The notes under the pieces: model-generated | The model's database searches: none | Told to the model about the DNA's origin: nothing | Seen by the model: only the letters and a program-made list of their open reading frames with translations | Shown here: in pieces, positions 1-27,039 of the stretch | How the letters are laid out: every line of letters starts with the position of its first letter | Position numbering within the stretch: position 1 is the stretch's first letter | Assembly (NCBI GenBank): GCA_910592205.1 | Contig: CAJVPJ010000347.1 | Span: 1-27,736, forward strand | DNA from: Paraglomus occultum | Lineage: Eukaryota; Glomeromycota; Glomeromycetes; Paraglomerales; Paraglomeraceae | DNA length: 27,736 nucleotides | Direction: 5' to 3' | Program-made: the position numbers and the translations under genes

Positions 1-356
1 ACTTCTTAGGTAATGAACATAAACGTGAAAATGTTAAAAATCCAGAGTAGACTAAATCGGATCCTTGTCTGAACTTGGCAAGTTTTATCTCGAATGAGCT
101 GAAATCCAAATGCTTTACCTATAGTCTCTTCGCTAGATGGGTCTATTTGTTTGAGATTTACGTTTAATCAATGTTCCTGAACGTATGATATGAACTGAAG
201 TCTGCTAGAAGACGCAAATGCTTACCAATGACCGATGAGTGACGAACAAAAGGCGGCGGAAGTGGCCCGTTATAATCGACTTCTTAGGTAATGAACATAA
301 ACGTGAAAATGTTAAAAATCCAGAGTAGACTAAATCGGATCCTTGTCTGAACTTGT
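1..356. repeat. 76-bp direct repeat (1-76 and about 280-356) inside gene 1
   Basis: Both copies begin ACTTCTTAGGTAATGAACAT and are essentially identical to about base 76. On the minus strand each carries the end of an intron and its acceptor AG. This fits duplication of an intron-plus-micro-exon unit about 280 bp long. Confidence 0.85.
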
Positions 357-748
357 AATGATTTACTGAAAATCAAAAAGTGCTTCTTACCTGCTTCCAA
401 AGTATTTTGTCGAGCGGAAACTCGTTCGTCCAAGACAATACTAGCCTCGCTGTTAGTTCTTATAAACGTCTTAAGGCTGTTGGCTGTTTCTTTAAATTCC
501 TGTTTAATCGCTTTTTTTTTCCACAGGAAATTTATGAGGTCAGTGACAGCCTCCTCTCCGAGTCCTTCATGTTTCATGCCCTGGCGGATCGTTTCGGCGA
601 AGATATTTTTGGCATCACGGGAGTTTCCTTTAAGCTCTATATTGTGAATCAGATGCGCCCGAGGTAACTTCATTATCAACACTGCATTTTGATCAGGACG
701 ACAGAGACGGTACCCATCACCAGATGGACGAGGACTGAAGGTAGCCAT
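1..748 (-). CDS. Micro-exon cassette gene 1, orphan family (3' part beyond window edge)
   Basis: Function not recognised. The ATG at 748 opens a 358-nt exon (748..391) for about 119 residues, a basic domain with no signal peptide. Its LWKKKAIKQEFK stretch matches LWRDPKIKAEFK and LWKDSKIKRKFK in the two downstream paralogues. A GTAAG donor leaves the exon in phase 1. Two symmetric phase-1 micro-exons follow: 279..226 (54 nt, reading VDYNGPLPPPFVRHSSVIG) and 142..119 (24 nt, DPSSEETIG). The next acceptor places a fourth exon exactly at base 1, so the gene runs off the left edge. Introns are 111, 83 and 117 nt. About 76 bp of intron plus acceptor (1-76) recurs at about 279-356, a recent tandem duplication of a cassette. 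A TTG three codons upstream of the ATG is in frame but not needed. Confidence 0.65.
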
Positions 749-2620
749 GTCGGCCAAGAATGCTGAAACTATTAGGTAACGGGTGTGCTAATCGAATAAG
801 AGTCCTTTATAAATGCATAACTTGTATTGTAGACTGAATTCGATAAAAACGGGTATATTAAACTTCATGACAACTTGCTCCGTATTTATCCAGTTAACTG
901 TCACACAGGATCCCATTGACCAAAGATAAAGGATCGATTCGATTATTTATAACATTTATGTATGCCCTCTTGAAGATCCTTAATGTTTCAAGGGTGTTCA
1001 TCTCGGCGCACTTTGTGGGAATAATGTCTGTAATAAATGATTACTGGTATCAAGTAGTCGAGTAATGCGGCAAGAAATTCTAGGGGGTTAGTCGCTGTTA
1101 CGAGCGACTTGCATAGTTTTATTTTAGGCTGATTTTGTGTACCAAATAATAATAATGTCATTTGTCTTGGTTTGTAAGAAATCACCCTGTTTTACAATCA
1201 CATTTTAAATATTTAGGCAGAGATGGGTGAAAATTTGTCCGTCGATTATCCAGTACATTTATTTCGCTTACTGAAGTATTAACTTTGAGCTGATATTAGA
1301 CAACGGACCAGAACATATTACTATGCATAAATTTAGTGATACGGGAAATTTTATCGATAATATATTCTGTTAATGAAGTTTGCGCTCTAAGCGTCAGATC
1401 GTTAGACATATCTCAGCATGTCCCCCATGGGACGGTCTTTCTGGGGAAGTTCGAATTTACATATTTTTATTGAACTACAATATTGCGGTAGGAAAACTTA
1501 AAATAAACATGATTTCCCTGCATGCGTCCCTGAAAATCAGTGATCGACATGACTCATTGAAACTAACCAGGCCAAGAAAAAGCGATCTTAAAGCTTTTAA
1601 ACCTCCTGTAACAAAAGTGAATAAAGAATATACATCATACATCTCGTTCGCTGGGAACATAGGATGGTGATGCAGTTCACCAAGAAGACCTAACGATTGT
1701 TTCTCAAATTCTCTGTCGAATAAAAGTGGTAGTGTCTAAGATAATTTGGTTTCTGATGCGAAAAAAAAAAGCTTTCTTAGGATCGGTTATTTGTGATCTC
1801 AACAGCGTGCATGTATTATATCACTGGAAAACAATACAAAACTTTTTACGTTATGCAATATGAGACTATACAACAATAAAAGGAATAAACTCGAATATGC
1901 AGTAAATTAGTTTCTCATCCATAACGTATGCTATTTTATTCTGAGTAACCCGTCTACTATAAACCATGACCGAGCTGTCCAAACGCACCTGACTGCTTTT
2001 AAAAGTACGTGTAACAATGCATTACGGCGATGCTATAGGATAAGTTTTAAATTACATTTAACGCCTGTACGTTTGACACTAACAACATGTGCTATTTTGA
2101 AAATAAACGTTATGATGTAAAGTACATAATTTAAACAGTTACACGGTATCTGCAATACTCTTCGGTTACGCAATGAATGCACGATGAACCTGGATACGAT
2201 AAAATTTGATCATAACAAAGTTTTTTCGATGTCCTACATCCCTTTATAGTGAAAAATTTTGGATATAACTTTGGGAGACCAATTCATATCAGTTATGTGT
2301 TTTTTAATACTGCTATAATGCCCAAGTATAATAGTAACATGGCGAATTACAATAGCAATTTTTTTGATGCTGAAATGGATGGGAGCTTATAAGTTTATTT
2401 GTTTTGGTTTGTGTTCTTTAATAAGAAAAACTAACTTTGAAGAATGTAGATATTGCGACACAAAACCGCCCACTTAGGCATATTTGCAACACTGGGATAT
2501 TCTCCATCGTCGCAAAGCGCGGAAACCGTTGAAAGTATGTCCATCTATTTAATGTTAACGTCATATTATTACTTTTCTTTGCAATACTTTCAGTTTTAGT
2601 TCGAGCCAAAAACAATAAAA
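749..2620. other. No supported gene
   Basis: AT-rich sequence 5' of micro-exon gene 1. Short open frames here start at non-ATG codons or lack splice context, coiled-coil or family similarity. I see no RNA gene or clear repeat. Confidence 0.5.
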
Positions 2621-2633
2621 GGTTGTCAGAATT

Positions 2634-2945
2634 AAAGACTGCAACTAAGACAAGCAGAATCAGAACGACAACTGCAATTGCAACAATCAGAATTAGAAGA
2701 AGCACTCATAAAGTTATAAGATAAATTTGAGCGATTACAAGTTGAATGGAGACAGGCAGAAAGTTTATCCGCAAATACATTGAACAAAGTACAAATCAAA
2801 ACGAGAGATAAAGATCAGATAAGAAGAACAGGAATTTCTTGCCAAATAAATTTCTTTAGATAATGATAATTTCCAGAACGTTTTGTTAAACCCCGAATTC
2901 AATCTTGATGATTTGGTAGGCCGTATAAGGGCTCGAATGACGGTA
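2634..2945 (+). pseudogene. Decayed coiled-coil ORF remnant
   Basis: One frame reads as a Q/E/L-rich heptad-like helix (LRQAESERQLQLQQ, then SELEEALIKL, an in-frame TAA, then DKFERLQVEWRQAESL). After a frame change comes NPEFNLDDLVGRIRARMT, ending at a possible GTAAGT donor near 2943. The words DKFER and RQAES recur, and a related GATAAATTTGAG-type segment reappears near 3126. The stop codon and frame change mean it is broken. A retroelement gag-like protein is one possible origin (inference). A similar remnant lies at 12.44 kb. Confidence 0.35.
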
Positions 2946-3595
2946 AGTAGACAAATTTCATTATTATATCCTTTAGCAATTGCGTATTTTTACAATTATG
3001 GTGGAACACTGGCGGCATTAAAGATTTTTTCAGAAGAGGCTCTGGTACCCTGTTATCACGCTTTGAAAAAAAAGTGGTATCAGATTGAGATGGCAGTACA
3101 CAACACCATTGCTTAGAAAAATTGCTGATAAATTTGAGTGATTACATTTGTCACGCGGAAACAACAATATTATTACTGTACACGTAGTTATCAATGTAGA
3201 TGAAGCTGATTGGAACTATATTAGTGGTTTATCACTAATACACGTATGTAGGGGTTGACGATCTTGAAGAAGCGAGCTACGATTATAATGAGCATAAAAC
3301 TTTATCTTAAACTTGTTAAATCCAAATACCATGATTTGTAAAAGAATAATAAATCTTATTATTGCTGCTTCAGTCCAAATCAATAATCAATGAAGACTAG
3401 CATATACGATAATGGAGTTGACATCAACGAAGGAAGCAAAGTGTGGTCCATACGATAATGACTATTAACGGTTGACATCAAGCGCATTCTTACTGTGAGA
3501 CGGCTGTTCTAAACCTCAATAGTTAAAATAATTAAACGCATTGGAGAGAGAATTGAAAATGCCGGAACGTCAAAGCCCGAGCCGCTTGCCTTTAG
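2946..3595. other. No supported gene; short degenerate repeats
   Basis: An open frame continues to 3116 but has no recognisable family. Two related tracts containing ATACGATAATG and GTTGACATCAA occur near 3400 and 3452. Nothing else stands out. Confidence 0.4.
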
Positions 3596-3865
3596 ATGCG
3601 GAAAGCCATTCGCTCGTATAATAATAACGAGTACAATTTTATGTTAGACTTCCACTCAGCAAACTGGTATAACGGCCTCACGCATCAAGGCAGCTCAAAA
3701 AGTACGCCCAAATGCATCAAGGCTGTTCAAAGTGAGCTCGAAAAGATCAAAGCTCAACGCTCCGATCATTATCCTCGCATTGTCTTTTTCCAGATCGCAA
3801 ATAGTAATGACAAATGTACAGTATTAGCTGTTGTAGAAGTAAAAGTATATACACGTATTGGGTAA
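3596..3865 (+). CDS. Small hypothetical ORF, doubtful
   Basis: An ATG-started frame of 89 residues with mixed composition and no domain, signal peptide or membrane segment that I recognise. The frame stays open upstream without an ATG (LERELKMPERQSPS precedes it), so it could be the tail of a broken gene like the remnant at 2.6 kb. No matching splice sites were identified. Confidence 0.25.
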   Translation: MRKAIRSYNNNEYNFMLDFHSANWYNGLTHQGSSKSTPKCIKAVQSELEKIKAQRSDHYPRIVFFQIANSNDKCTVLAVVEVKVYTRIG

Positions 3866-4439
3866 TGCAACGGTGTTTTCGTGTTGCTTTTTAAATAAAA
3901 AAAGCCTTTACATGAAGCAGTTACACAGCATGTTCTGTGCCCCCAAGAGATAAAGAATAATCTTTTTTACATCATTCAAGCCGTTACGCATGTGTTGTTA
4001 GAGATATTTAAGAAATGGTTACCTCGAGAAGATATGTTTTTATTAATAAAAAAACTCAAAAAAGTATTTCCGGTTGTTAACAAAAAAGAAGTAATTGGAA
4101 TATTTCATCACCAGCTTTATAATATTTGTTAATTTTATCATTGATTGTATTTGAGTGATAAAATGTAACCAAAGTTTAAAATATTATGAACTGTAATCTT
4201 TCGGATTTCAAATATAAATAGATATCTTGGGCAGGCAGCAAAACCAAGATTCATGACCATCGGGAATGGAAAAATTAGACGAGGTTAATTCCATCGGTTG
4301 ACAGAGTTTTTCGATTTCGTTTTCGATTTCACAATGATCTTATTATTTTAAAAAAAGAATAAAATAGAAAATTAATTCGATTTTGTTTTATATATTTGCT
4401 CACAATAATTGGTATGAAACAGAATTTATATCTTACAAA
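3866..4439. other. No supported gene
   Basis: AT-rich spacer downstream (3' side) of minus-strand micro-exon gene 2. No coding frame or repeat stands out. Confidence 0.5.
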
Positions 4440-5896
4440 TCACTTAAAGCTGGTCATAGGCAAATACAAATCCGTTACTGTCATAACTACCGGACCTTGA
4501 AAAACTTGCCATTCGTCATCTACGCCCAGGTAATGATAAAATTGCATTAATACTCGATACTTCTAATCACGCTTCTAAACAATGGTATGAGCTGAATATC
4601 ATCAACTTGAAAGTCCTACCCATATTAGTATCATGTTCGGGCGCAAATTGATGGTAGCCAGCTTGAGCTATTCGTGGTTGAGTAATGAAAATTTACTTTA
4701 ATAACTTTTCCTAAGCGTTTGATATAAGCTCAAGTCTGAAACTTTACCCATATTCTGTTCGACAGGCGTAGGCGAGTAAACTTGGCCGTAGTTATGATAG
4801 CTTGCGTCTTGTGAATAAGGAAAATTGACATTAACAAGTTATCGAACGCAATGCATGGCTATTATTATTATAATTATAATTACCCATGGGTATAGTCAAT
4901 TCGATGCCTATACCATAGAAATTGTGGTTAATTGAATTAACAAAATTCCTATTATTAAACACGTAATATGGGCTGAATATCATCAACTTTAGTCTTACCC
5001 AGATTAATATCCTGTTCAGGTGGAAATTGATTGTAGCAAGCTTGTTCTAGCGTAATGGATATTTGCTTTAATAAATATTCCCAAGCGTTTGGTACAAGCT
5101 CAGGTTGAAACTCTTACCCGCATGCTGTTCGGTAGGCATAGGCGAGTAAGTTGGACCGCCGTTATAATAGAGTGCGTCTTTATAAATAAAAAAATTAACA
5201 TTAATAAGTAATTTTTATAAGAGCTGAAAAAAGTGCAATGCGTTGCTATTACAATCGTGATTATAATTGCCCATGGGCACAACCAATTCGACGCCTACAC
5301 CATGCACATTGTGGTTGATTATTAACAATTAAACATGTGATATGAGCTAAATATTATCAACTTAAAAGTCTTACCCTGTTCAGGCGTAAATTGATGGTAG
5401 TAAGCTTGAGCTACTTGTTGAGTAATAGAGATTAACAACCTAAAAATTTAATAGTCTGCTAAAAAAATCAAACTCTTACCCGTATCCTGTTCAGCAGACA
5501 CTGACGAGTAATTTTCGGGTATGATATTGTAGTCATCTTATTGTAAGACAAATTTCCGTTAAATAGTTTATATTTATAAGAGCTGAAAAGTGCAAATGCG
5601 TTACTATTATAATTACCAGTGGCGTCTCCGGGCGTATCCCATTCGCTATTTGCTGTTGTTAGGTAATGGGAAAGTTGCACCATAATTAATATTAACAAAA
5701 GCACAATCTAAACGTTTGATAGGAGCTGAACGTTAACCTAAAATTCAAGCCTTACCCTGTTCGGAAGTAACTTGAGAGTAGCCAACTTGGGTTACTTGTT
5801 CAGAAACGAAAATTTTATTTTAATCAACATTTTAACGTTATAAAGGCTTACCCGTGACGTCAATAAGCGAGTAATCATCACGTAGTTGGCTGTGAT
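4440..5896 (-). repeat. A-B-C micro-exon cassette array of gene 2
   Basis: After the linker exon at 5896..5852, the array is A (5794), B (5652), C (5536), A (5413), B (5294), C (5177), A (5046), B (4907), C (4807), A (4667), then a B-like terminal exon (4519). A exons end in a ..PEQ-type peptide. B exons carry a short ..E(W/L).. core. C exons begin DA/DD and carry YSP.P.EQ or YSSVSAEQ. Matching introns are also alike, for example GTAAGACTT..AAGTTGATGATATT after A and GTAATTATAAT after B. Confidence 0.8.
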
Positions 5897-6265
5897 CTAC
5901 ATGATAGACACAAAATCGCTGACCTTGTATTGACATAATTATTCTAAACATGTAACTCAAGCTTACCTGTTTCTGAGCTATAACTCAGTCTGTCGTGGAC
6001 AATACGAGGCATTCCCTTATCTTTTAAAGCGTCGTTGTACAATACTTTTGAATTCGGCTTTGATTTTTGGGTCACGCCATAAAGCTTTTCCAAGATTATT
6101 CGCAGCCGTCGTGATTAGCTGTTCAAATATTTTTCTCGGATTGCGGTTCCCCTCTTGCAAGAGACCTGATTCAAGTATTTCATCCCCGGTAGGCCTTTTT
6201 ATGAATGCTTGCTGACGGAGAGTGTATCCCTTTTGTTCTATCGTAAAAGTAATTTTATCAGCCAT
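4440..6265 (-). CDS. Micro-exon cassette gene 2, 13 exons, one-base frameshift in exon 1
   Basis: Function not recognised. Exon 1 (6265..5967) begins MADKITF and holds the family domain with LWRDPKIKAEFK. The exons after it are 5896..5852, 5794..5756, 5652..5617, 5536..5480, 5413..5375, 5294..5271, 5177..5118, 5046..4999, 4907..4884, 4807..4748, 4667..4620 and 4519..4440 (TGA). Exons 2-12 are 45, 39, 36, 57, 39, 24, 60, 48, 24, 60 and 48 nt: all divisible by 3 and all in phase 1. They encode short Tyr/Gln/Pro/acidic peptides such as VTQVGYSQVTSEQG and DASYHNYGQVYSPTPVEQ, in repeating A-B-C order. Exon 1 is 299 nt, one base too long. Its frame ends in TAA after RRFKR, while the frame matching gene 3 continues (DALKDKGMPRIVHD) to the phase-1 donor. 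It is therefore either a pseudogene or carries an assembly indel; without the extra base it would be 285 residues. The exon at 5294 uses a GC donor. Confidence 0.72.
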
Positions 6266-6760
6266 TGTGGTAACATAGAAGCTTACAAACTGAGGTTTAT
6301 TTATAGTCCTCAAAGGCAACACAAATATCAAAAATTCCCAAACTGGATCAAAAATTTTGACAAAATAGGTTCGGTGGGACTGCACTTATTTATAATAATA
6401 GCATCGTTTGGTCACAGTTGGCTCAATCCCAATCGACTAATTTTGGTTTAATTTCTCGATTTTTTAGATAAAATGATTAGTTGCAGGGACATTCAGATAA
6501 ATCTGTATAATTTATTTATAGCTTTGTCGCACAAGTACAAATTGAGCGGATGGGTTGCTCACCCTGCATCGCTGTGTGACTAACGCAATTTCTTCAATAG
6601 TAAATTCTTCATTTTTTTTTGTCAGATATAGTCGTTGTGAATGTAATGGGACGATCAGCCCCACTTTTAGGCAGATGTTTCGTATGGAACTTAGTTGGGC
6701 ATGTACATATAAAAATTTAACCTAAAGTAGTTTGAAATATGAATAACGATAGAGCAACAC
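6266..6760. other. 5' flank of gene 2; no supported gene
   Basis: AT-rich region upstream of the gene 2 ATG. The gene 2 frame stays open upstream to an alternative ATG at 6385, but the similarity to the paralogues begins at 6265. No other gene is seen. Confidence 0.4.
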
Positions 6761-6827
6761 AGTGATTGCATAGAAAAATATACTCAGGCCCAAACCATTA
6801 ATGAGTATAACCTATTCTTTGGTCACT
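6761..6827. repeat. Structured repeat element, copy 1
   Basis: This matches copy 2 at 8365-8445 over about 70 bp, with the last 27 bases identical (ATGAGTATAACC through TCACT). It can pair as AGTGA 6761-6765 with TCACT 6823-6827, and ATACTCA 6780-6786 with TGAGTAT 6802-6808. CCAAA 6790-6794 can pair with TTTGG 6818-6822, which crosses the previous helix to form a pseudoknot. The class of element is unknown and the strand undetermined. Confidence 0.5.
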
Positions 6828-8364
6828 CTGGTGGGTGCAGATTTAAATCTCTTTTTTATATTATTAATATTATAGTTATCGATGTACTAATCTTTTTATC
6901 TTCTTCTTCTTTCTTCCCCAATCCAACATTGGATTCATGACCAAAGTTAAGAATTAGAAATGTTACACTGGACGTCATGCAGCATGCAACTACGTTAAAC
7001 AATCTATAAGCAACTCTTGCTCTATCCGTTCACTACTTCCACCATTTATGAGCATCGAAGGGTTAAACTGTTGGTTTAGTAATCTTTATCCAATTGAATA
7101 AAAGAATTTGTAATGTTAGTAAAATTAACAGTCAAATTACGGTAGAAATAACGTATTACACAGTCTGTCTCATACGATACCTGCCGACTTATCGAAAATT
7201 ATGTGATCGAATATAATACATTGAATTAAACCGTTTATGATTAAATACTTTTTAATATACAAAATACTCTTGCAGACTAGCTTAGTCTTAAAAACTCAAC
7301 TTGTTTTTTCTTATCTGACGTTGTAAATCTTCCATTCCTGACAACATAGACTGTGTTATTCGATTATAAGTAGGGCCATTAATCGGGTGTGGTCCACCAA
7401 TTAAATTGACAAATTGACACGTGAAACTGATTATCAAGAATTTACTGACTTTAGGCCAAAACGACTTATCAGTGACTCTGTTAAAAATATGCGTCTCCTA
7501 ATAGTACGCATACGCAGCTGTAAAGCTCTTACAGTACATGCCTATGTTTCCTCCTCGCATACTTGTCTCAAATACATTTGCAAATAAAGGAGTTCTCGTT
7601 GAATACATTTGCGCGCATGAATTCGACAGTGTAATACTGACAGTTTATTATAATTACTGGACGTCAACAAAAGCGGGCTTGCTTCTATACCGATTATTGT
7701 TTGTACTTTTATCTTCTCGTGACTTCTCAATCGAAGCCAGATGTATAGTCAGAGAGACATAGAAATATGTATACATCTTTTTTCCGAGAGATAAGGAGGA
7801 AAAAAAGGGCTCCACTATCATGTGGAATGTCATAGTTGAAATAGTATATAGCTTTAACGCTTACGTTGTAATCTCTAACAAGATTCTGAAATCTATTATT
7901 ACATTGTTATCCTGTATATGTGGTCCCAATTCGTTCGTTGATCGTATTTGTAATACTATTCCAAAAGTCTACCCTGCAACTGCCGGGATTGTTATAATAC
8001 TCTGCATTTCGATTTCTTCTTTCGTCAATTAGTCAGGACAGCGATCCATATTAGACGATCAACTATTTATAAGAAAAAAAATCATCGTACCTTCACCGTG
8101 TTTATATTACATCTTAACTATAAATACATAGTATGATCGTGACAAATTTGTCACCGTTTCGTTAATATAATAACAAAAGTATAGATCTAAATATAAGAAT
8201 ATCTGCGGATTTGTTTATCTCATTCCTATCATTGGAAAATAAAATCATATGCTTGTAATACATATTAATACATGCGTATGAAAGGCTAACATGTAAAAAT
8301 AATTCGATTTTTGTAAGCATAAATTTTATTATTTTAATTATTGAAAATATAAATAATACTAAAT
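6828..8364. other. No supported gene
   Basis: AT-rich spacer. A 70-codon hydrophobic ATG frame at 7820..8032 and overlapping frames at 7538-7762 on both strands have no family signal or splice context, and I do not call them. Confidence 0.4.
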
Positions 8365-8445
8365 GCACCAGAGTGATTGCATGTGAGGAAAATACTCAGA
8401 CCCAAAGCCATTGATGAGTATAACCTATTCTTTGGTCACTGGTGC
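8365..8445. repeat. Structured repeat element, copy 2
   Basis: The terminal stem is longer than in copy 1: GCACC (8365-8369) plus AGTGA (8372-8376) pairs with TCACT plus GGTGC (8436-8445). Internal helix ATACTCA 8392-8398 pairs with TGAGTAT 8415-8421. CCAAAG 8402-8407 can pair with CTTTGG 8430-8435, crossing the internal helix. Differences from copy 1 mostly fall in loops, or keep pairing such as A to G in the strand facing TTTGGTC. It has no tRNA-type T loop and no convincing C/D boxes. Confidence 0.5.
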
Positions 8446-8516
8446 AAATCAATTTCGTTCTTCTTTACTATCATTATTACTATTATTAATTATTGAATTC
8501 ATTCACTATTCCTAGA

Positions 8517-9517
8517 TCATAACAAAAGATCCATGGAATCCCATTCAAAAATTCGACCATAGCAGTCCAGAAAAAGGATTCCACAATAAGGCTTACCAAT
8601 AATAATGACGTGATCGAAACCATACCATTTAACCTGCTCCATATAGTTTGTAAAATTATCTGGAGGTTGGATCTCAATACCTATAAATGATGCAACACGA
8701 TGACGATCACTTGCAATCTCATGAGCAACACCCATGCGATTCATAACCTTCACCAACCACCCTTTGCCACTTGAAACACGGAAGAGTAATCTCCCTCCAA
8801 CAGAGTGATTGTCCGGGTATATAAGACGACTTCGGACTTTCTGTCGTCCATGTGGTGCCCGCCAAGGTACCGATTCGGAGCAGTTCCCCGGACAACATTC
8901 GAATGGCACCACTGTAATACCGGTATTTATTTCACTCTCGACATTGTCGCTAGTTTGTTGCGGTTGTAAATTATTGTTCCCATTCGTCGTGTTAGTGTTC
9001 TTCCACAGCGAATCGACGCCCCAAATATGAACCGAGAGCAAATACAGTTTACCAAAGCCTTGGCAAATTCGTGATTTCAGAGATAAACTTATCCACCTTA
9101 TCTCCAACCTAAATAGAATGTTAAAAAACAGAGAAATGCTTAAAGTTGGGACTGTGAGGCTCCCGGTACGGTTACTTAATTCTGCTCGAACTTGGGCCAA
9201 ACTGTCAAAAACTTCTGTTCACCAAAAGTTTTTACTCATTCATTTCTTACAATATTTCTCTTCCGTCCTTTCGTATCCATCTCCATAATTATACTTTTGT
9301 CGGCCAGGAGTTCCAACATCTCGACAAGACATGATTTCTGGTCTTGAAATGACATCTCTTGGTAGGCCGACGGATATGGCACGTCCAAAGAAGGCATATT
9401 GCATCCCATACTGTTATTATTGGAATTAGTCGATAATGGGACGGTTTTACCGGTATCAAACGGAGTATATTTTCTTTCGAGCGGAGACCTACATAGAACA
9501 TTTTTTGTTAAATACAT
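8517..9517 (-). CDS. Orphan-family protein, 3 exons, 294 residues
   Basis: Function not recognised. Exons 9517..9251, 9201..9176 and 9108..8517 join in phase (donors GTAAG and GTAAC, acceptors GACAG and TTTAG; introns 49 and 67 nt) into 295 codons including TGA. An in-frame TAA sits just upstream of the ATG. The N-terminal third is low complexity and Ser/Asn-rich. The middle has an N/T/Q-rich linker. The C-terminal half is conserved in the broken copy at 26.0-27.0 kb, sharing GNCSE(S/T)VPW.A.HG, a hydrophobic L(I/V)(Y/F)P segment and GF(D/N)H(V/I)III.GK.YCG followed by FGR/YGR and a (E/D)WDS end. The reading frame stops after WDSMDLLL, while the other copy continues about 45 residues, so the C terminus may be truncated. 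No signal peptide lies at this start. Confidence 0.6.
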
Positions 9518-9557
9518 TTATTTTTTATTGTTCTCTACTAGACAAGCAAAAACTAAC

Positions 9558-9692
9558 CTGAAAGGTTTCTATTAACTGCTTCTGAAGCCCAAAAAGTATA
9601 TTATATACCATACACGTACTTTTCATCAAACATATCAAAACACGGTAATAGACCAGCACAAAAGTTATCGTTATGACTAGTAACCTAGCCAT
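9558..9692 (-). other. Hydrophobic ORF upstream of the orphan gene (possible extra exon)
   Basis: From the ATG at 9692, 45 codons run to a GTTAGT donor at 9558. The first 25 residues are strongly hydrophobic (MARLLVITITFVLVYY), like a signal anchor. However, its phase does not join any acceptor that leads into the frame of the 9517 gene, so I cannot connect the two. It could be the 5' untranslated region or a separate small ORF. Confidence 0.25.
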
Positions 9693-9831
9693 GGCGGAAA
9701 AAAAAAGGTTTGGATGTAGAGCCGATGTGATACAGTAAACAAATCGCGTGCCATATTTGTAAAGGTAAACAAATTTCACACTTTTGTTGTATCACTACAA
9801 GGTATCTTTTCGCCATGGCTAAGGGTACTAT

Positions 9832-10196
9832 GTTATGACACCATGACTTAGCTCCAGTCCACTCTCTGGAGTGCCTTTACTTCGAGGGCCTTCGGGCACA
9901 ATACCACCCCATACCATGAAGACATTCTCCTAGGACGTATCCTCTTCCTCCGCTCCACTGACATACAAATAAATCCACAAACCCCATGAATTTACCCCAA
10001 TAAAATACAGTCAATCACGATCATTCAAACCTCTAAAAATAGATACATCTCCCCCGATCCTCAATAACCCCCCTCCATGAGCTTTTATTCTCTTCCTCTG
10101 CATGTAATGTAGATAGATAAAAACAGCCTAAACTGGCACTTTAGCGAGCGCCTTGTTGTGAATAAAAGTTCCTCGCGATAGTTATGACACCATGAC
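9832..10196. mobile_element. SINE-like insert, 333 bp, between 16-bp direct repeats
   Basis: GTTATGACACCATGAC occurs exactly at 9832-9847 and 10181-10196, flanking 9848-10180. The insert is more GC- and pyrimidine-rich than its surroundings and has a small hairpin (CACTC..GAGTG) near the left end and AATAAAAG near the right end. A 16-bp target-site duplication fits target-primed retrotransposition. On the minus strand, the left end plus the left 16-mer can be read as VPEGPRSKGTPESGLELS followed by HGVIT. I have an unverified recollection of this text recurring in Glomeromycotina sequences. If so, the 16-mer may belong to the repeat instead of being a duplication. Confidence 0.5.
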
Positions 10197-10639
10197 AATA
10201 CCGGCCCTGAAATTAGCATATGACTCAAGGGCTTTATCTGCAATTTGGACTCATAACGTGATAATTCATGTTTTTTTCCGATGCGCTATATATACACGGT
10301 TAGAAATAAAAGCTTGATGTGGGTAAAGTAAACATTTTCGGCACTTTGTATCGGCTCATTAAATTACAGATTGTGATCGCATTTTGAAAGCGTGCTTAAA
10401 TTCACGCGATCAACATGTGGCATATTCACAATAAGCGATTGATATTAAAATCTCCTTTATTTAACCAATCGCCAAAGTATCTAAAGCATTTGAGGTTCGA
10501 ATTCCTTAAAAAACTTACTGCTTATCGCTAGTGTTTGTAGTGAATTGAACGACAGAAACGCGTGCTCCCGTCTACCATATCTGAACAGCAACTTAAAAAA
10601 ATTTGGCCTTATAAGATCCTTCAAACACTTTACTGCAAT
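10197..10639. other. No supported gene
   Basis: 3' flank of micro-exon gene 3. It holds a small palindrome (GCGTG..CACGC near 10390-10410) and weak decayed cassette-like text just below 10640. No tRNA, although a GGTTCGAATTCC string occurs near 10493. Confidence 0.4.
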
Positions 10640-12339
10640 CTATGCGTTATCGTTACAGTTATAATCTTCCATGGGCATAACCCATTCGATGCCTACACCA
10701 TAGAAATTGTGGTTGCATTAACAAAATCCGTATTATTAAACACGTAATATGGGCTGAATATCATCAACTTTAAAGTCTTACCCAGATTAATATCCTGTTG
10801 ATTGTAGCAAGCTTGTTCTACATAATGGATATTTGCTTTAATAAATATTCCCAAGCGTTTGGTACAAGCTCAAGTTTGAAATTCTTACCCGTATCCTGTT
10901 CGGTAGGCATAGTTGGACCGCCGTCATAATGGCTTGCGTCTTTATGAATAAGAAAGTAACATTAATAAGTTATCTCTACAAGAAGGCAATGCGTTGCTAT
11001 TACTATTATAATTATAATTACCCGTGGACATATCCCATTCGACGCCTACACCATACGCATTATGGTTGCATTAACAAAATTCATATTATTAATCATGTGA
11101 TATGGGCTGAATATCATCAACTTTAAAGTCTTACCCATATTAATATCCGTAAATTGATGGTAGCGAGCTTGAGCTACTTGTTAAGTAATAGAGATTTACT
11201 TCAATCAATAACCACATAAGTTCAAGTCTGCTAAACAAAATCAAACTCTTACCCGTATCCTGTTCGGCAGACACTGACGAGTAATCTTCGGGTATGATAT
11301 TGTACTCGTCTTATTATAAGACGAATTTACGTTAAATAGTTTATATTTATAAGAGCTGAAAAGTGCAAATGCGTTACTATTATAATTACCAGTGGCGTCT
11401 CCGGGCGTATCCCATTCGCTATTTGCTGTTGTTAGGTAATGGGAAAGTTGCACCATAATTAATATTAACAAAAGCACAATCTAAACGTTTGATAGGAGCT
11501 GAAAGTTAACCTAAAATTCAAGCCTTACCCTGTTCGGAAGTAACTTGAGAGCCGACTTGGGCTACTTGTTGAGTGATGAAAGTTTTACTTCAATCTATAT
11601 TTCGTCACGATTGTGAAAGTCCGCTAAAAAGACTAAACTCACCGGTATACATGGTGCCGATCATATCATTATTATCGTCTTATTAATAAGAGAATTTACA
11701 TTGATAAATTTGTCTTGTGAACTGAAAAGTTTGAAAAAGTTGTATGAGCTGGACAACAACTTACCCACAAAGTCGACATGAGAGTAACCAACTTGGGCTA
11801 CTTGTTCCGTGTCCTGAACGGGCGAACCATTATTACGTAGTTGTGGGCTGTGATCTACATGAATGATAATTAATGAATGAAGCATATATACGCGCACAGA
11901 AAACGTCTTTTTATATCGTGTGCTATTTCTGTGTTTTCTGTGGAATAAATCGTTCTGTTTATGCCAGAATAGCTAAAGCGCAGATCTTGCTTGCGTTGAC
12001 ATAATAGATAAGATGTAACTCACGCTTACCATGAGACATGTCAAATGCATAGAGTCCTTTCTTCTTTAACGCCTTCTCCACAAAGCCTTTGAATTTACGT
12101 TTAATTTTGCTGTCCTTCCACAACAGTTTTCTCGCGGCTTCTGGAAGAAACCGCATCATTACGTTATTGAAGACGACTCGTGAGAGGTACACAAGTTTCC
12201 GGGAAAAAACCAGATTTCCCAGTATTGCGAGTATGTTGTCTTCTGTGGGTTTGTTTATTATTATTTGTATTTTTGTGCCTTGTTGACACAGCACAATGTA
12301 GTCATGTTTAGAAATAGTTGTAAAGGATACGACAGCCAT
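10640..12339 (-). CDS. Micro-exon cassette gene 3, 11 exons, intact 256-residue frame
   Basis: Function not recognised. Exon 1 (12339..12030, 310 nt) begins MAVVSF and holds the family domain with LWKDSKIKRKFK and a basic EKALKKKG end; there is no signal peptide. The other exons are 11854..11765, 11678..11643, 11564..11529, 11425..11390, 11309..11253, 11176..11135, 11045..11022, 10939..10889, 10817..10782 and 10692..10640 (TAG). Internal exons are 90, 36, 36, 36, 57, 42, 24, 51 and 36 nt, all symmetric in phase 1. Introns are 71-175 nt with GT donors. The total is 771 nt, so the frame closes exactly across ten introns, which is strong support for the model. The encoded tail is Tyr/Gln/Asp-rich (for example DASHYDGGPTMPTEQDTG). 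The last exon is a B cassette whose donor has changed from GGGTAATT to GGAAGATT, so it reads into a stop. Any sum of the internal exons keeps frame, so alternative isoforms are possible. Confidence 0.78.
11330..11503. repeat. 174-bp block identical to 5557-5730
   Basis: Bases 5557-5730 and 11330-11503 are identical, covering the B exon with parts of both flanking introns. Similarity at about 95% or more continues over roughly 5450-5770 and 11220-11540. Introns as conserved as exons indicate recent duplication or gene conversion between genes 2 and 3. Confidence 0.9.
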
Positions 12340-15821: not shown

Positions 15822-18344
15822 TTAATTGCCAACGTTGTCATTCTTTAGACTTGATCTTCCAGCTCGCATCATTTCATCTACCAGCAAGAAATTACTGGCT
15901 ATCACAGAGCTAATAAATAGAGAAATAAAATGTGGGTAAATATAGCTCAACATCGAACCGTACGATTAACATCCCACTAACATACCATGAATGCAACATA
16001 TGTCGCACTACCCGATAATTATCCCAGATGCCTTCCGTAACAGGATCAAGAGTTTCTCCAGTCTTCAGATCCACGCCGACAATATGGCCCTCAGCATGCT
16101 CCTCCTATGCGGGAGATAACCATTGGTTTCGTGTCAGAAAGGAATACCAAACTAACACCAAATCTTCTGCTTATAACTTATGCTCTTACCTGCAATGCCA
16201 CCATAGTCTTTTGTGCTTCATGTCCAGCGTTTTGCGCTAATATCTTGGGAATAATCAACATCGCATCCCCAAATGCCTGGACGCCCATTTTTGCAAGACC
16301 TTTTACACCATCTTTATACTTTGTCAAGTGAGCCGATAGAGCTACTTGGAATGCACCTGCGCCAGGAATTACGGAAGCGTCTTCTATTGCATTCTTGACT
16401 GCTCGGAGACCATCACGAACAGCATCATTAATCTGAGCAATAGTGTGGGCATTTGGGCCTAAATTTATTAAAAAAACACACACACATTTGATTAGTGAAC
16501 GTGAATGAATACGCGATCACTATAATGTGCTTACCTTTTATTAGGAGAGTAACTGATTTAGGGTCTTTGACATCTTCCACGAAAGTAAACTTTTCTTCTC
16601 CAAGAACATGTTCGTATACAAGCCCGGCATAGCCAAGCACATCAGGCGTAAGATCATCAACTGAATTCTGGGCGACACCTCCGCAGACAAGTTGCAATCT
16701 GATATGTATGGGGGAAAAAAAGGTACAATACGTCGTGTTAATATTTGCCCTTTACTGATTACTATATGGAATATCTATCACTAACCTTTCCATGTTTCTT
16801 CTCTTAGCGCGTCTTAGAGCCAGAATGCCATTTTTACATAGGATATCCAAAGACAATGGATCGATTCCCTTCTGATTAATCACAACAAAGCCTTTGCCCG
16901 AGTCCCCAACGACCTCTTTCTTAAATTCAACAATCTTTCTAACTTTTTCATCAGTAAATTTACGTTCCGATTCGACCAGCTTTTCCCGTTGTTCAGCCGA
17001 CGAGTAAAAAAATCCCGAATTAATCTCGCTGTTTTAATAAGTACAGAATTTTAGTTTTAAATGTGAGAACGACAATACAAGTCGTTGATTTTTTTCTTTT
17101 TACCTTTTTTCATATTCCAAAGAAACGTTTAAAGTCAAAATATATGCATCTTTAACGCGCTTGGGCATATCGGGGTGACGCGCTCCATGATCCATTACTA
17201 ATCCACGGATTAGTCTTGAATCTATTGCTGTCTTGTGTTGCATCTTCATAATCTCAACCATATGCAAGTCTATCGGTTCTCCTTCACGTTTAATAGCCAA
17301 TACAGCATCAACCACAGCGTCGGTTAACGCATCGGCAAGGGTAGAGTGAACTTTGGTACGGAGAGAAGTACGAGCAACATTGATCAACAATTCGCGGTCG
17401 ATTGGACGTTCGACTTTGAATTTATCAAGAAACTGTGTTGAAAAAAAAAATAAAACCCATCAATAGGTTATAGTGAAGACGTTATGCTCAGAGAACAAAG
17501 AAAGAAAAAAAGCCTATATATTACTTCTAAAGCTTCTTTCCGGGCAAGATCAAACCCTTCTGTGATAATTCGAGGATGCAGGCCTTCAGATATATATCTC
17601 TCCGACTGTCTCATTAGTTCTCCAACGAGCAGCACGATAGACGTTGTGCCATCTCCGGTGATCTCATCTTGAGCGGTAGCAGCACGAGCTATCATAGCAG
17701 CCGTGGGATTTTGTATTTGCTGAGATATGTTTTTGATTAATTTTAGGCTGTCGGAATGGATTATTAATTAAAGAATTAAATCCTATTATTATTTCAGCGA
17801 GATACTCACCATCTCACTTAAAAGCACCTTTCCGTCCTTGGTAAGTTTGATATTGCCCGCTCCATCCACCAACCTATTTATTACGAATTTTCCGTCAGCA
17901 CAATACAATAATGGGAAAAACCAGCACTTGATGAAATCAGCCATAATTAAACGTCATATTTATAGCGGGTGTCAAGGTCATTGCATACTCTGTCTATCAG
18001 GTAAAATTCGGCCGATTCATTGAATTGAATAAAAGGTACGTGAAGATCTATATATTATGACAATAAGCTGCTAGGAAGCAAAGGCTACGCCAGGATTGCG
18101 AGCGTAACTCACATTTTTATTGTTCCTTTCGGGCCTAGATTTGACTTGATTACATCTTTTAAACCAATGGCTGCTGTTATGTTGAGTTGCAGAGCCTGGC
18201 CCCGTCGGGCGACTTCCGAGTTGGGATTAATAAGTTGAACAGCGCTACCAGACCTATAAAATAGATCAAACAGCTGTTGCCTTGAGCCAACTTACAAATT
18301 AACGTTTTTCAAAGGTGCAAGATCATATAAAAGACATGTTACAT
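15822..18344 (-). CDS. CCT6: T-complex protein 1 subunit zeta (CCT/TRiC)
   Basis: One of eight subunits of the cytosolic group II chaperonin that folds actin, tubulin and other proteins using ATP. Exons 18253..18113, 17873..17810, 17719..17525, 17432..17104, 17028..16786, 16698..16535, 16458..16190, 16104..15986 and 15909..15822 (TAA) join in perfect phase. Recognisable family blocks are [13 protein letters not shown], the nucleotide-binding [10 protein letters not shown] and LTKDG, the catalytic-loop [73 protein letters not shown] and a C-terminal [15 protein letters not shown]. No ATG precedes the first block in frame. The simplest start is AT at 18344-18343, a GT-AG intron 18342..18254, and G at 18253, giving ATG-TCT-GGT and 537 residues, close to the usual length of about 530. 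Only this split start is uncertain. It is divergent from the ING gene. Confidence 0.93.
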
Positions 18345-18603: not shown

Positions 18604-20055
18604 ATGAGACCTACAACGATGCCAACAAATGGTTCAAATAAAGCAGAAAAGTCAGAGAGAGGAAGCAAAATAGATAAGCTAGACAGTAGATCCGATAAAG
18701 ATAACCTTGTATATTTGGACGATTATGTAGACAGTAAGTGTTATAACGTCGCCCCCCGGGTGATTCAAGTAGTCTGACCATTATTTCAAGCGTTCATTTT
18801 TTCTTGCTGTCCGCTCTAGCGATCGAGTCTCTCCCTTCGGAGCTTCAGCGCAACTTTTCTCTTATGCGAGAACTTGATGCTCGTTGTGAAGGTAGGTCAC
18901 ATTGACTGAAATGTAATGCTACCAAGCTTTGCCAAGTCCATTAATCTGTTTTCTGGACTTTCGTAACAGAGGCGATGAATGTCGTTGCTAAACAGGCCGC
19001 TTATCTACTGGAAAATGCCGAACATATAACACCAGAGGAACGTATAGCTGAATTAAAGAAATTATCAGATTGTTTAACGGAAAGTCTAAAGGATGCCGAA
19101 GAAAAGTGTGCCATGGCGCAGGCTACATATAAGACGGTAACTGGGTTTGAGCTTTTTTGGTGTTTACCTGTCGTTGTGTATGTATAGTTAGTTGCTTGCT
19201 ATGATCGTTCGACGTCCTGGTGTACAAATTGAAATGGATATATACGCTATCAGGTTGATCGTCACGTAAGAAGACTCGACGATGACTTGCAAAGATTCGA
19301 AGACGAACAGATGACAGGACCGGGTAGAATAGTTCCGACAGCGCAACCTATTACGTCAACACCCGAAACACCACGAAAAAATGGACAGAAAGAAAAGGAC
19401 AAGAAAGAATCACGTGATAAGCGAACTCAACAGAGTAAATATAACTTGATCGCAACTTGTTGCTTATCTTATCCTATGCTGACTTTTTATACTGTTAGCA
19501 GCACAAGAACAGCCGAGTAATAAGAGTAAGTTTATATTTTTCTTTTGGTCTTGCTAGTGTTTCGAGACTGACGTGATCCCGTCAATATATTAGGGCGTAA
19601 ACATAAAGATAATGGTACTCCGCCACCGAGCAATGGTCGTAACGGTCATGATAAAGAGCGCAACGATAAGTCAAAGAAGGCAGCACGAAAAGACAGTAAC
19701 AAGGGACAAAGAAAAACAAAAGACAAACAGTATGAATCACTTCAATGTCGATTGAATCTTTGTCGTGCCATATTTTAAATGCAATCATTCATTCTGATAA
19801 CGTACATTGCTTACAAACCACCCTTACTATGCGTTTAGGAATAACGTTCAAACTACAGACATGCCTATAGATCCCAATGAGCCAACGTATTGCTATTGTC
19901 AACAAGTGAGCTATGGCGAAATGGTAGCTTGCGACGATGACGAGTGTGAAATCGAGTGGTTCCATTATGCCTGTGTAGATCTTAAAGCTCCACCACCTGG
20001 CAAGTGGTATTGTAAAGAGTGTACAGAAAAACAGAAAAATAAGCAAAAGAAATGA
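18604..20055 (+). CDS. ING-family (inhibitor of growth) PHD-finger chromatin protein
   Basis: Probably a histone H3K4me3-reading subunit of a histone acetyltransferase or deacetylase complex, acting in the nucleus (family knowledge). Exons 18604..18733, 18820..18891, 18970..19136, 19254..19434, 19499..19525, 19594..19729 and 19839..20055 join in phase into 309 residues. The N-terminal ING helix reads [20 protein letters not shown] then [11 protein letters not shown] (about residues 37-67) and continues through [16 protein letters not shown] Lys/Gly-rich basic linker covers roughly 165-240. The C-terminal PHD begins [20 protein letters not shown], with C4HC3 ligands C256, C258, C269, C274, H280, C283, C296 and C299, followed by a Lys-rich tail. 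The YGEMVAC and EWFHYACV segments are those of the H3K4me3 pocket. Acceptor choice at 19499 (CAG repeated) could shift by 3 nt. A possible poly(A) signal, AATAAA, lies near 20306. Confidence 0.93.
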
Positions 20056-26007: not shown

Positions 26008-27039
26008 TCAATGACGCCTTTTCTTTTTCGTCTTCTTTTTTGTATCGTCCACGATTGAGGAAATGTCGAATTCTCCTGGCACATCTGAAAGAAGAAAAAG
26101 TTATAAAGGATTAAGGTAAAATGTGAGCAAAATATATACGCACATACATTTATGTAGCACAAACACAGTTCCGTCCTTTAAAACGTCCCATGCTGTCCGA
26201 TCGTTTCAGATTCCTTCTTTGATATAACTTCGAAATAATCCCCGAGATACCATAATGCATGACCATCTGAATCCCAATCAAATACGCGACCAAAACAATC
26301 CATAAAAAGCATTCCACAATAACGTTTTCCGATAATAATATGATTAAAACCAAACTGTTTAACATCCATTACGTAACACTGAAGCTCCATCTTAGTATTT
26401 CTTCAGGATCTTCGGTTTGGAGATCGAGGCAAAGAGAAATCGCCACACGACAACCATCAGATTCACTTAATATTTCAACTAAAATGGGAGAATTAGTGCA
26501 CGATAATTTATCGAATTTTGCACCATCTGACACTGGGCACACGGAAGAACTGTCTTCTTTGTTCTTAGGTTCATCGTTTGGGAATACAAGATGGCACGGC
26601 GTTTCCGCGGGTTTTTTTGTCCATGTAGAGCATACCAAGGTACTGTCTCGGAACAATTTCCCCACAGCTCTTTAACTTTTTCGTGGTTGGAACACTCGAG
26701 AACTATGTTGGCATTATTTTCACTCTTGTCATTGCTACTAGTTTGTTCGTTTCGTATATCTGTTCTCTCATCTGTCTCACTTCTGCTGTCCCGCAACGAA
26801 TTGTTGCCCCGAAGAAATATCTCAAAATCCTCCCTTTCCGAACCGAAATGTGAGGTTTACCGTGGTTAGGCGAGCAAGCAAGTTCTCCTCCATTTCTATG
26901 ATCTTGCTGTCCCATACTGTAATCGCCAAGATCGGACGAAAAATTGAGATAGTGTTATCATCTTTCCCGTTGGGCCGTACGGAGTTACTATTTCCCGGTG
27001 TTTATGTAAAAATAAGGTTAATAAATACGTTTTTTGCAT
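26008..27039 (-). pseudogene. Frameshifted copy of the 8.5-kb orphan-family gene
   Basis: Homologous to the gene at 8517..9517 but in several frames. The start at 27039 (MQKTYLLTLFLHKH, TPYGPTGKMITLSQ) matches that gene's N terminus. A block from about 26796 has QTSSNDKSENN and GNCSETVPWYALHG, then the frame changes at a T7 run (26612-26618; A7 on the coding strand). The next block (LVFPNDEP...VEILSESDGCRVAISL) changes frame again near 26388-26394. The next has GFNHIIIGKRYCGMLFMDCF, GRVFDWDS and LWYLGDYFEV, with another change near 26192-26203 into TAWDVLKDGTVFVLHK. A GT-AG intron (26147..26085) leads to a Lys-rich last exon (26084..26008, DDTKKKTKKKRRH). At least three single- or few-base shifts, plus more in the N-terminal part, indicate a pseudogene unless the assembly has indels. 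Confidence 0.55.

Follow-up and report, generated by a model that had tools for sequence, protein, structure and literature searches.

A Paraglomus gene family of symmetric phase-1 micro-exons with a predicted folded head and a frame-safe repeat tail

The same-phase micro-exon genes available for comparison are those of flatworms and aphids, in which the encoded proteins are secreted and act at the host interface. In schistosomes, the micro-exon genes (MEGs) are described as having a coding region that consists mostly of very small symmetric exons, with a high ratio of non-synonymous to synonymous substitution (dN/dS); all MEG products are said there to carry a signal peptide, and the genes appear to be restricted to flatworms (PMC4350168). 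The same account describes VAL-6, in which a VAL gene of Group 2 (i.e. the intracellular type) is joined to a MEG-like part, perhaps by recombination (PMC4350168). Introns of MEGs are described as long, up to 5 kb (PMC10526429). Aphid bicycle genes are described as containing many small internal exons, almost all of which start at codon position 2 (PMC9168663). Among fungi, the SP7-like effectors of arbuscular mycorrhizal species are characterized by a signal peptide, a Y[KR]Rx[AP]x[AP] motif, hydrophilic imperfect repeats and an intron before the first repeat, and their authors report no hint of SP7 in the Paraglomerales (PMC11333574). Here we analyse a family of three paralogous genes (genes 1, 2 and 3) on the minus strand of a 27,736-base stretch of Paraglomus occultum DNA (hereafter the window), which is a whole contig of the 32.3 Mb assembly. 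P. occultum is an arbuscular mycorrhizal fungus and is described as an early-branching member of the Glomeromycotina with a small, repeat-poor genome (PMC9453076).

Models deposited at the National Center for Biotechnology Information (NCBI) for this contig correspond to gene 1 (P0001, partial), gene 2 (P0003) and gene 3 (P0002). They may be ab initio predictions; GeneMark-ES is the program named in a single-nucleus study that covers two Paraglomus isolates (PMC10512289). Fitting these models to the minus-strand sequence gave one splice solution per gene with 10 introns in gene 3, 11 in gene 2 and two in gene 1. All 23 modelled introns are in phase 1 and are 57–191 nt long, all internal exons are 24–90 nt long and divisible by 3, and a G stands directly before the donor in 21 of the 23 cases. 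The first-pass annotation of this DNA had proposed three minus-strand paralogues with a common first-exon head, each followed by symmetric phase-1 micro-exons, with ten introns of gene 3 closing into a 256-codon frame. Mapping of the deposited models bears out the paralogues, the common head and the phases, and gene 3 (12339–10640, 11 exons) reads as 768 nt, or 255 codons plus a stop. The micro-exon series holds for genes 2 and 3, but gene 1 has only two such exons before the contig ends. The observation of a phase-1 micro-exon family is confirmed as real and unusual, with a homologue in a second species.

The tail that follows the head is built from repeats of a three-exon cassette A-B-C, with exon classes A (VAQVGYSQVTSEQ-like), B (EWDTPGDAT- or GVEWDMST-like) and C (DDYNIIPENYSSVSAEQDT-like); within a gene the cassette recurs every 353–387 bases, so that each occupies ∼360 bp of DNA. 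In gene 3, exon 1 (the head, 12030–12339, with the deposited start at an inner Met at 12156 instead of 12339) is followed by exon 2 (11765–11854, 90 nt), exon 3 (11643–11678, 36 nt), A1 (11529–11564, 36 nt), B1 (11390–11425, 36 nt), C1 (11253–11309, 57 nt), A2 (11135–11173, 39 nt, or 42 nt with an AAG acceptor), B2 (11022–11045, 24 nt), C2 (10889–10939, 51 nt), A3 (10782–10817, 36 nt) and a last exon of B type that includes the stop TAG (10640–10692). Exon 2 of gene 3 resembles exon 2 and exon A1 of gene 2 joined in frame, and apparently arose by in-frame fusion of these two exons across the intron between them, with six bases from the end of the former intron now coding for EQ.

Gene 2, also on the minus strand, has exon 1 as deposited at 6046–6265, then exon 2 (5852–5896, 45 nt), A1 (5756–5794, 39 nt), B1 (5617–5652, 36 nt), C1 (5480–5536, 57 nt), A2 (5375–5413, 39 nt, or 36 nt with a TAG acceptor as deposited), B2 (5253–5294, 42 nt as deposited), C2 (5118–5177, 60 nt), A3 (4999–5046, 48 nt), B3 (4884–4907, 24 nt), C3 (4748–4807, 60 nt), A4 (4620–4667, 48 nt) and a last exon that is B-like (DDEWQV...) and includes the stop TGA (4440–4519). 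Exon B3 is open, has a GTAATT donor and is skipped in the deposited model. A 24-nt form of B2 (5271–5294) would need a GC donor; directly after it stands GCAATT, in place of the GTAATT of its siblings, which may be a GC donor or a lost site.

Because all introns are in phase 1 and a G usually stands before the donor, nearly every junction codon is GNN, which is never a stop. Exon skipping in gene 3, computed over 512 combinations, left all 512 open to the same stop, and all of 1000 random orders of its exons were open to that stop as well; the earlier suggestion of frame-safe skipping and shuffling is thereby upheld. Intron retention in gene 3 shifts the frame in nine of ten cases and brings in stops in the tenth. 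Class A exons can also have tandem acceptors three bases apart (AACAAG, TAG; AACAAGTAG), which add or remove one valine. These properties bear on the possibility that alternative splicing gives rise to many isoforms of different tail length at one locus and that this is the purpose of the symmetric micro-exons. Open skip forms, tandem acceptors and the skipping of the open exon B3 in the deposited gene 2 model are all consistent with it; however, symmetric phases also arise by simple inheritance in duplicated cassettes, and 7 of the 10 gene 3 introns have GTAAGN donors, which are close to the general donor consensus and would favour constant use. We regard isoform production as the purpose of the architecture as rather unlikely.

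We then asked how exceptional such an array is by scanning for the longest run of same-phase micro-exons, with a donor pattern that had been set with knowledge of these genes. As background we used 40 regions of the same genome, originally fetched for their HMG boxes (222,804 bases, two strands and three phases, i.e. 240 scans). The longest phase-1 chain has nine exons in gene 3 and eight in gene 2, whereas 160 background scans gave no chain, 71 a chain of one, eight of two and one of three, and 1000 dinucleotide shuffles per gene reached at most three (gene 3) and two (gene 2). The gene copies are related by duplication, so these numbers indicate an exceptional array and not a count of independent events. 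The same short exons are often open in phase 0 too (a chain of seven in each gene); phase 1 is therefore fixed by the joint fit with exon 1 and not by openness alone.

The family appears to be confined to Paraglomus in the searches made. The three heads are without a Pfam match at E ≤ 1, in agreement with the earlier remark that the family was not recognized. For the whole deposited proteins, Pfam gave sub-threshold rows only (five for the P. brasilianum protein P0004 described below and one for P0002), NCBIfam one weak row (P0004) and PHROGs weak rows to unknown or unrelated families; Rfam gave no match and Tandem Repeats Finder reported no array. Protein and DNA searches of the genome with exon 1, in which the best candidates were scored, found no copies beyond this contig. 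Two earlier homologue searches returned only the window's own proteins, and a three-protein profile search over 3184 candidates added a sole homologue, the 321-residue P. brasilianum protein P0004 (E 3e-41).

When this protein was compared with the window by tblastn, the 10 best of 40 listed matches (at least 24.6 bits) lay to at least 75% on predicted minus-strand exons, one of them on condition that gene 2 exon 1 is extended to a GTAAGC donor; the eleventh match (23.7 bits) is a chance match on the plus strand. Parsed by hand, the P0004 tail reads e2-A-B-C-A-C-A-B-C-A-B-C-A, which shows the A-B-C order again, with a larger number of units. Its later C units resemble one another at 86–95% and the later C units of P. 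occultum at 24–38%. The record label of P0004 ends in CDS:10, as do those of gene 2 (12 exons) and gene 3 (11 exons) but not that of gene 1 (CDS:2, three exons); from this label we infer that the P0004 gene has ten or more coding segments.

Heads and tails of these genes appear to have different histories. At the protein level, genes 2 and 3 are related in exon 1 (E 7e-7), but at the DNA level this exon aligns no better than chance (score 20, against a mean of 18.6 and a maximum of 27 in 200 shuffles). The alignment score rises to 37 in intron 1 (shuffle maximum 25) and is 31 in the next intron pair (shuffle maximum 21), and from 5832 in gene 2 and 11602 in gene 3 onwards the two genes are 85% identical over ∼960 bases. 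This shared tract occupies 4862–5832 in gene 2, with a 300-base core (5461–5760) that is 97% identical to 11234–11533. The gene 2 head is 73% identical (53/73) to that of P. brasilianum and 38% (26/69) to that of gene 3, whereas the first cassette of gene 2 plus its next A exon is 92% identical (48/52) to gene 3 and 60% (33/55) to P. brasilianum; each grouping holds in all of 2000 column bootstraps. In the simplest reading, the heads of genes 2 and 3 separated before the split of the two Paraglomus species. Since head and tail of gene 2 group with different partners, the tails were probably copied or homogenized between the paralogues later, with breakpoints in phase-1 introns. The searches found no P. 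brasilianum orthologue of gene 3, which leaves room for other histories, but tail exchange between paralogues, here genes 2 and 3 at a distance of 5.8 kb, is what the sequences support.

We next considered the protein products. An AlphaFold2 model of P0004 (five sequences) gives block means of 66–86 for residues 1–90, where three short strands and four helices are predicted, and less than 50 for residues 90–321; the gene 3 head modelled alone has the same order of elements at a low confidence of 52. The head is thus predicted to be folded and the tail to be disordered. The three heads measured are basic (13–15 Lys+Arg and 5–10 Asp+Glu), while the tails are acidic, with two Lys+Arg against 27 or 30 Asp+Glu in 183 or 152 residues, and their imperfect repeats are hydrophilic (grand average of hydropathy (GRAVY) −0.80 and −0.92). 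No solved structure was found by sequence at E ≤ 10, and a Foldseek search with a low-confidence first model gave nothing at E ≤ 0.001. With its basic, predicted folded head and its acidic, aromatic-containing, predicted disordered tail, such a protein may act in binding inside the cell, the tail being a tunable multivalent element.

As for location, the best 12-residue hydropathy mean in the first 42 residues is 0.12–0.78 in three of the four heads (gene 1 was left out), i.e. no hydrophobic leader is apparent in them, in line with the earlier statement that the first-exon domain has no signal peptide. In gene 2 a TATA-like box starts 40 bases ahead of the ATG and in gene 1 63 bases ahead, which leaves little room there for an upstream leader exon; no such box occurs within 345 bases of the gene 3 ATG. 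If the proteins were nevertheless secreted effectors of the SP7 or micro-exon type that act in the plant, they would have to be exported without a signal peptide. Hydrophilic imperfect repeats, divergent tails, an intron ahead of the first repeat and the restriction to Paraglomus would fit such a role, but the N termini, the TATA-like boxes close to the ATG of genes 1 and 2, the absence of the SP7 motif from all five proteins and the lack of SP7 in the Paraglomerales as reported by its authors (PMC11333574) make it very unlikely.

The head could also be a strongly changed HMG box, in which case the family would have branched off from the many HMG-box genes of this fungus and gained an acidic, activation-like tail. 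Three weak signals point to this origin and none is significant: the head shares weakly, in two helices, the Trp - IK..F register of HMG-box proteins of the same genome, but it differs from them in its predicted N-terminal strands and shows no significant match to that family (no Pfam HMG_box match at E ≤ 1). None of the 40 own-genome HMG regions scanned contains a micro-exon chain longer than three. We consider this descent unlikely. As a separate observation, the P. occultum genome contains a large HMG-box expansion, with at least 95 HMG_box matches, 76 of them over the Pfam cut-off and several in clusters (C109, C37, C819, C191, C329 and C245); a similar expansion of MATA-HMG genes is known in Rhizophagus.

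Taken together, these data make it probable that the family encodes intracellular proteins in which a small folded basic head is followed by a long disordered, acidic and polar tail, made from A-B-C micro-exon cassettes. With every modelled intron in phase 1 and nearly all junction codons GNN, breakpoints that fall within introns would allow whole cassettes to be lost, duplicated or fused, or to be copied from one neighbouring gene to another, and exons could likewise be skipped, in each case with the frame intact. The main source of tail variation would be DNA exchange (i.e. gene conversion or unequal crossing-over), to which splicing may add, and tail length might determine how strongly the protein engages in multivalent binding within the fungal cell. 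In-frame length differences are present among family members at the DNA level.

Several points weigh against this interpretation: (i) the P0004 model has an overall mean of 44.5 and a low predicted template modelling score (pTM 0.29), its tail being unfolded; (ii) the intracellular location was judged by the hydropathy of three of the four heads; (iii) the splice sites are predictions, on which the deposited models and the second species agree; (iv) the P. brasilianum homologue was compared as protein; (v) only four family members were found, P. brasilianum included; (vi) unlike those of class C, the repeats of class A are not grouped by species (mean identity 0.45 within P. occultum and 0.48 between species); (vii) tail exons and introns have diverged about equally (mean identities 0.72–0.78 and 0.78–0.79), and the ratio of non-synonymous to synonymous differences (pN/pS) of the tail exons is 1.06 (bootstrap 0.71–1.89); and (viii) the frame of gene 2 exon 1 is disrupted.

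A pN/pS near 1 together with intron-like divergence means that no selection, purifying or positive, is visible on the amino-acid sequence of the tail. Positive selection was considered, as third codon positions differ least, but was rejected on the pN/pS value and on a Fisher test (p 0.32, three positional pairs); pN/pS controls in the other frames gave 0.59 and 0.98. The tail retains its open frame, in all 17 exon copies compared, as well as its polar character and most of its splice sites. In positional pairs of genes 2 and 3, gapped bases number 3, 9 and 12 in exons and 1, 1, 2, 3, 4 and 11 in introns (one-sided gaps only). The counts over all pairs, aligned by a program that is not codon-aware, are less clean: gaps that are multiples of 3 make up 25/39 (A), 12/16 (B) and 4/21 (C) in exons and 16/59, 7/38 and 12/38 in introns; by this count class C gives no support to the in-frame argument.

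When gene 2 exon 1 is translated from 6265, a stop appears ahead of the G|GTAAGC donor at 5966. Matches to the P. brasilianum protein cover 6265–6023 in the starting frame and 6066–5968 in the next, and this change of frame within the exon indicates that gene 2 is frame-disrupted in comparison with the sister species. The deposited model evades the stop by ending exon 1 early at a weak and unusual A|GTATTG donor, and leaves out the continuation at 5967–6045, which contains the in-frame stop and whose next frame is conserved with P. brasilianum. This may reflect a broken gene or an assembly error. A decaying gene cluster, in which tails drift neutrally and open frames are remnants, would account for the disruption, for the pN/pS value and for GCAATT after gene 2 B2. 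Such decay is improbable, because gene 3 is open over 11 exons, all compared exon copies are open, the gapped bases in exons are multiples of 3 in all three positional pairs, unlike most of those in introns, and the gene 2 head is still 73% identical to that of another species; the probable intracellular protein with a frame-safe tail remains our preferred explanation.

Gene 1 has the most distant head (E 0.011 and 0.003 against the other two). Its exon 1 (391–748, minus strand, deposited as 7959_t, P0001, with the motif LWK..IK.EFK) is followed by exon 2 (226–282, 57 nt, phase 1 on both sides) and exon 3 (120–142, partial in the deposited model, with a GTAAAG donor next). The contig end (1–87) repeats the end of gene 1 intron 1, being 95% identical to 279–365 with 73 of 73 bases in a local alignment. 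It is possibly a tandem copy, an assembly loop or a collapsed tandem array, and is as expected if a tandem array halted the assembly.

Elsewhere in the window, two related minus-strand open reading frames (ORFs), 8517–9200 and 26479–26796, are 39% identical over 62 amino acids and both contain GNCSE.VPW..HG; 8536–8606 matches 26269–26339 over 71 bases at 82%, and Pfam gave no match at E ≤ 1 for the ORF at 8517–9200. Ordinary neighbours are the exons of a TCP-1/cpn60-type chaperonin gene (16178–17390, minus strand) and a PHD-finger ORF (19807–20055, plus strand).

In brief, the P. occultum genes are a new variant, in a fungus, of a known gene architecture, that of same-phase micro-exons. No report of such genes in fungi was found among the literature matches listed, which were open-licence papers only. 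It is possible, though we put it forward tentatively, that this is the first fungal family of the MEG or bicycle type, i.e. a non-secreted one with old, distinct heads and disordered tails traded through stop-proof phase-1 introns in both DNA and RNA, so that the early-branching Paraglomerales would have retained a generator of tail length and tail sequence. Finding the architecture in a fungus, without an apparent secretion signal, would point to its independent origin and to its use for intracellular disordered tails. The discordance of head and tail makes the general statement that symmetric exons allow shuffling measurable, as exchange between genes 5.8 kb apart, and an early-branching mycorrhizal lineage without reported SP7 gains its own fast-changing repeat proteins.

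Compared with SP7, the family shares the fungal subphylum, the hydrophilic imperfect repeats and the intron before the first repeat, although introns here precede every repeat. By contrast, it has no apparent signal peptide by the same hydropathy measure, and Y[KR]Rx[AP]x[AP] occurs in none of the five proteins tested, so that the likeness to SP7 drawn by the first-pass annotation holds for the repeats and the intron but not for the secretion signal or the signature motif. The likeness to bicycle genes is one of architecture: internal exons start at codon position 2, after phase-1 introns, but bicycle genes belong to insects, have ∼17 exons on average and are implicated as gall effectors. Bicycle proteins also carry C-Y-C motifs, and a crude C..Y..C pattern is absent from all five proteins tested. 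With MEGs the family shares coding regions that lie mostly in very small symmetric exons, which is the part of the proposed MEG-like logic that stands; it differs in its short introns and in having, by hydropathy, no apparent signal peptide. The nearest parallel to a non-secreted head with a micro-exon tail may be VAL-6, with its intracellular-type and MEG-like parts.

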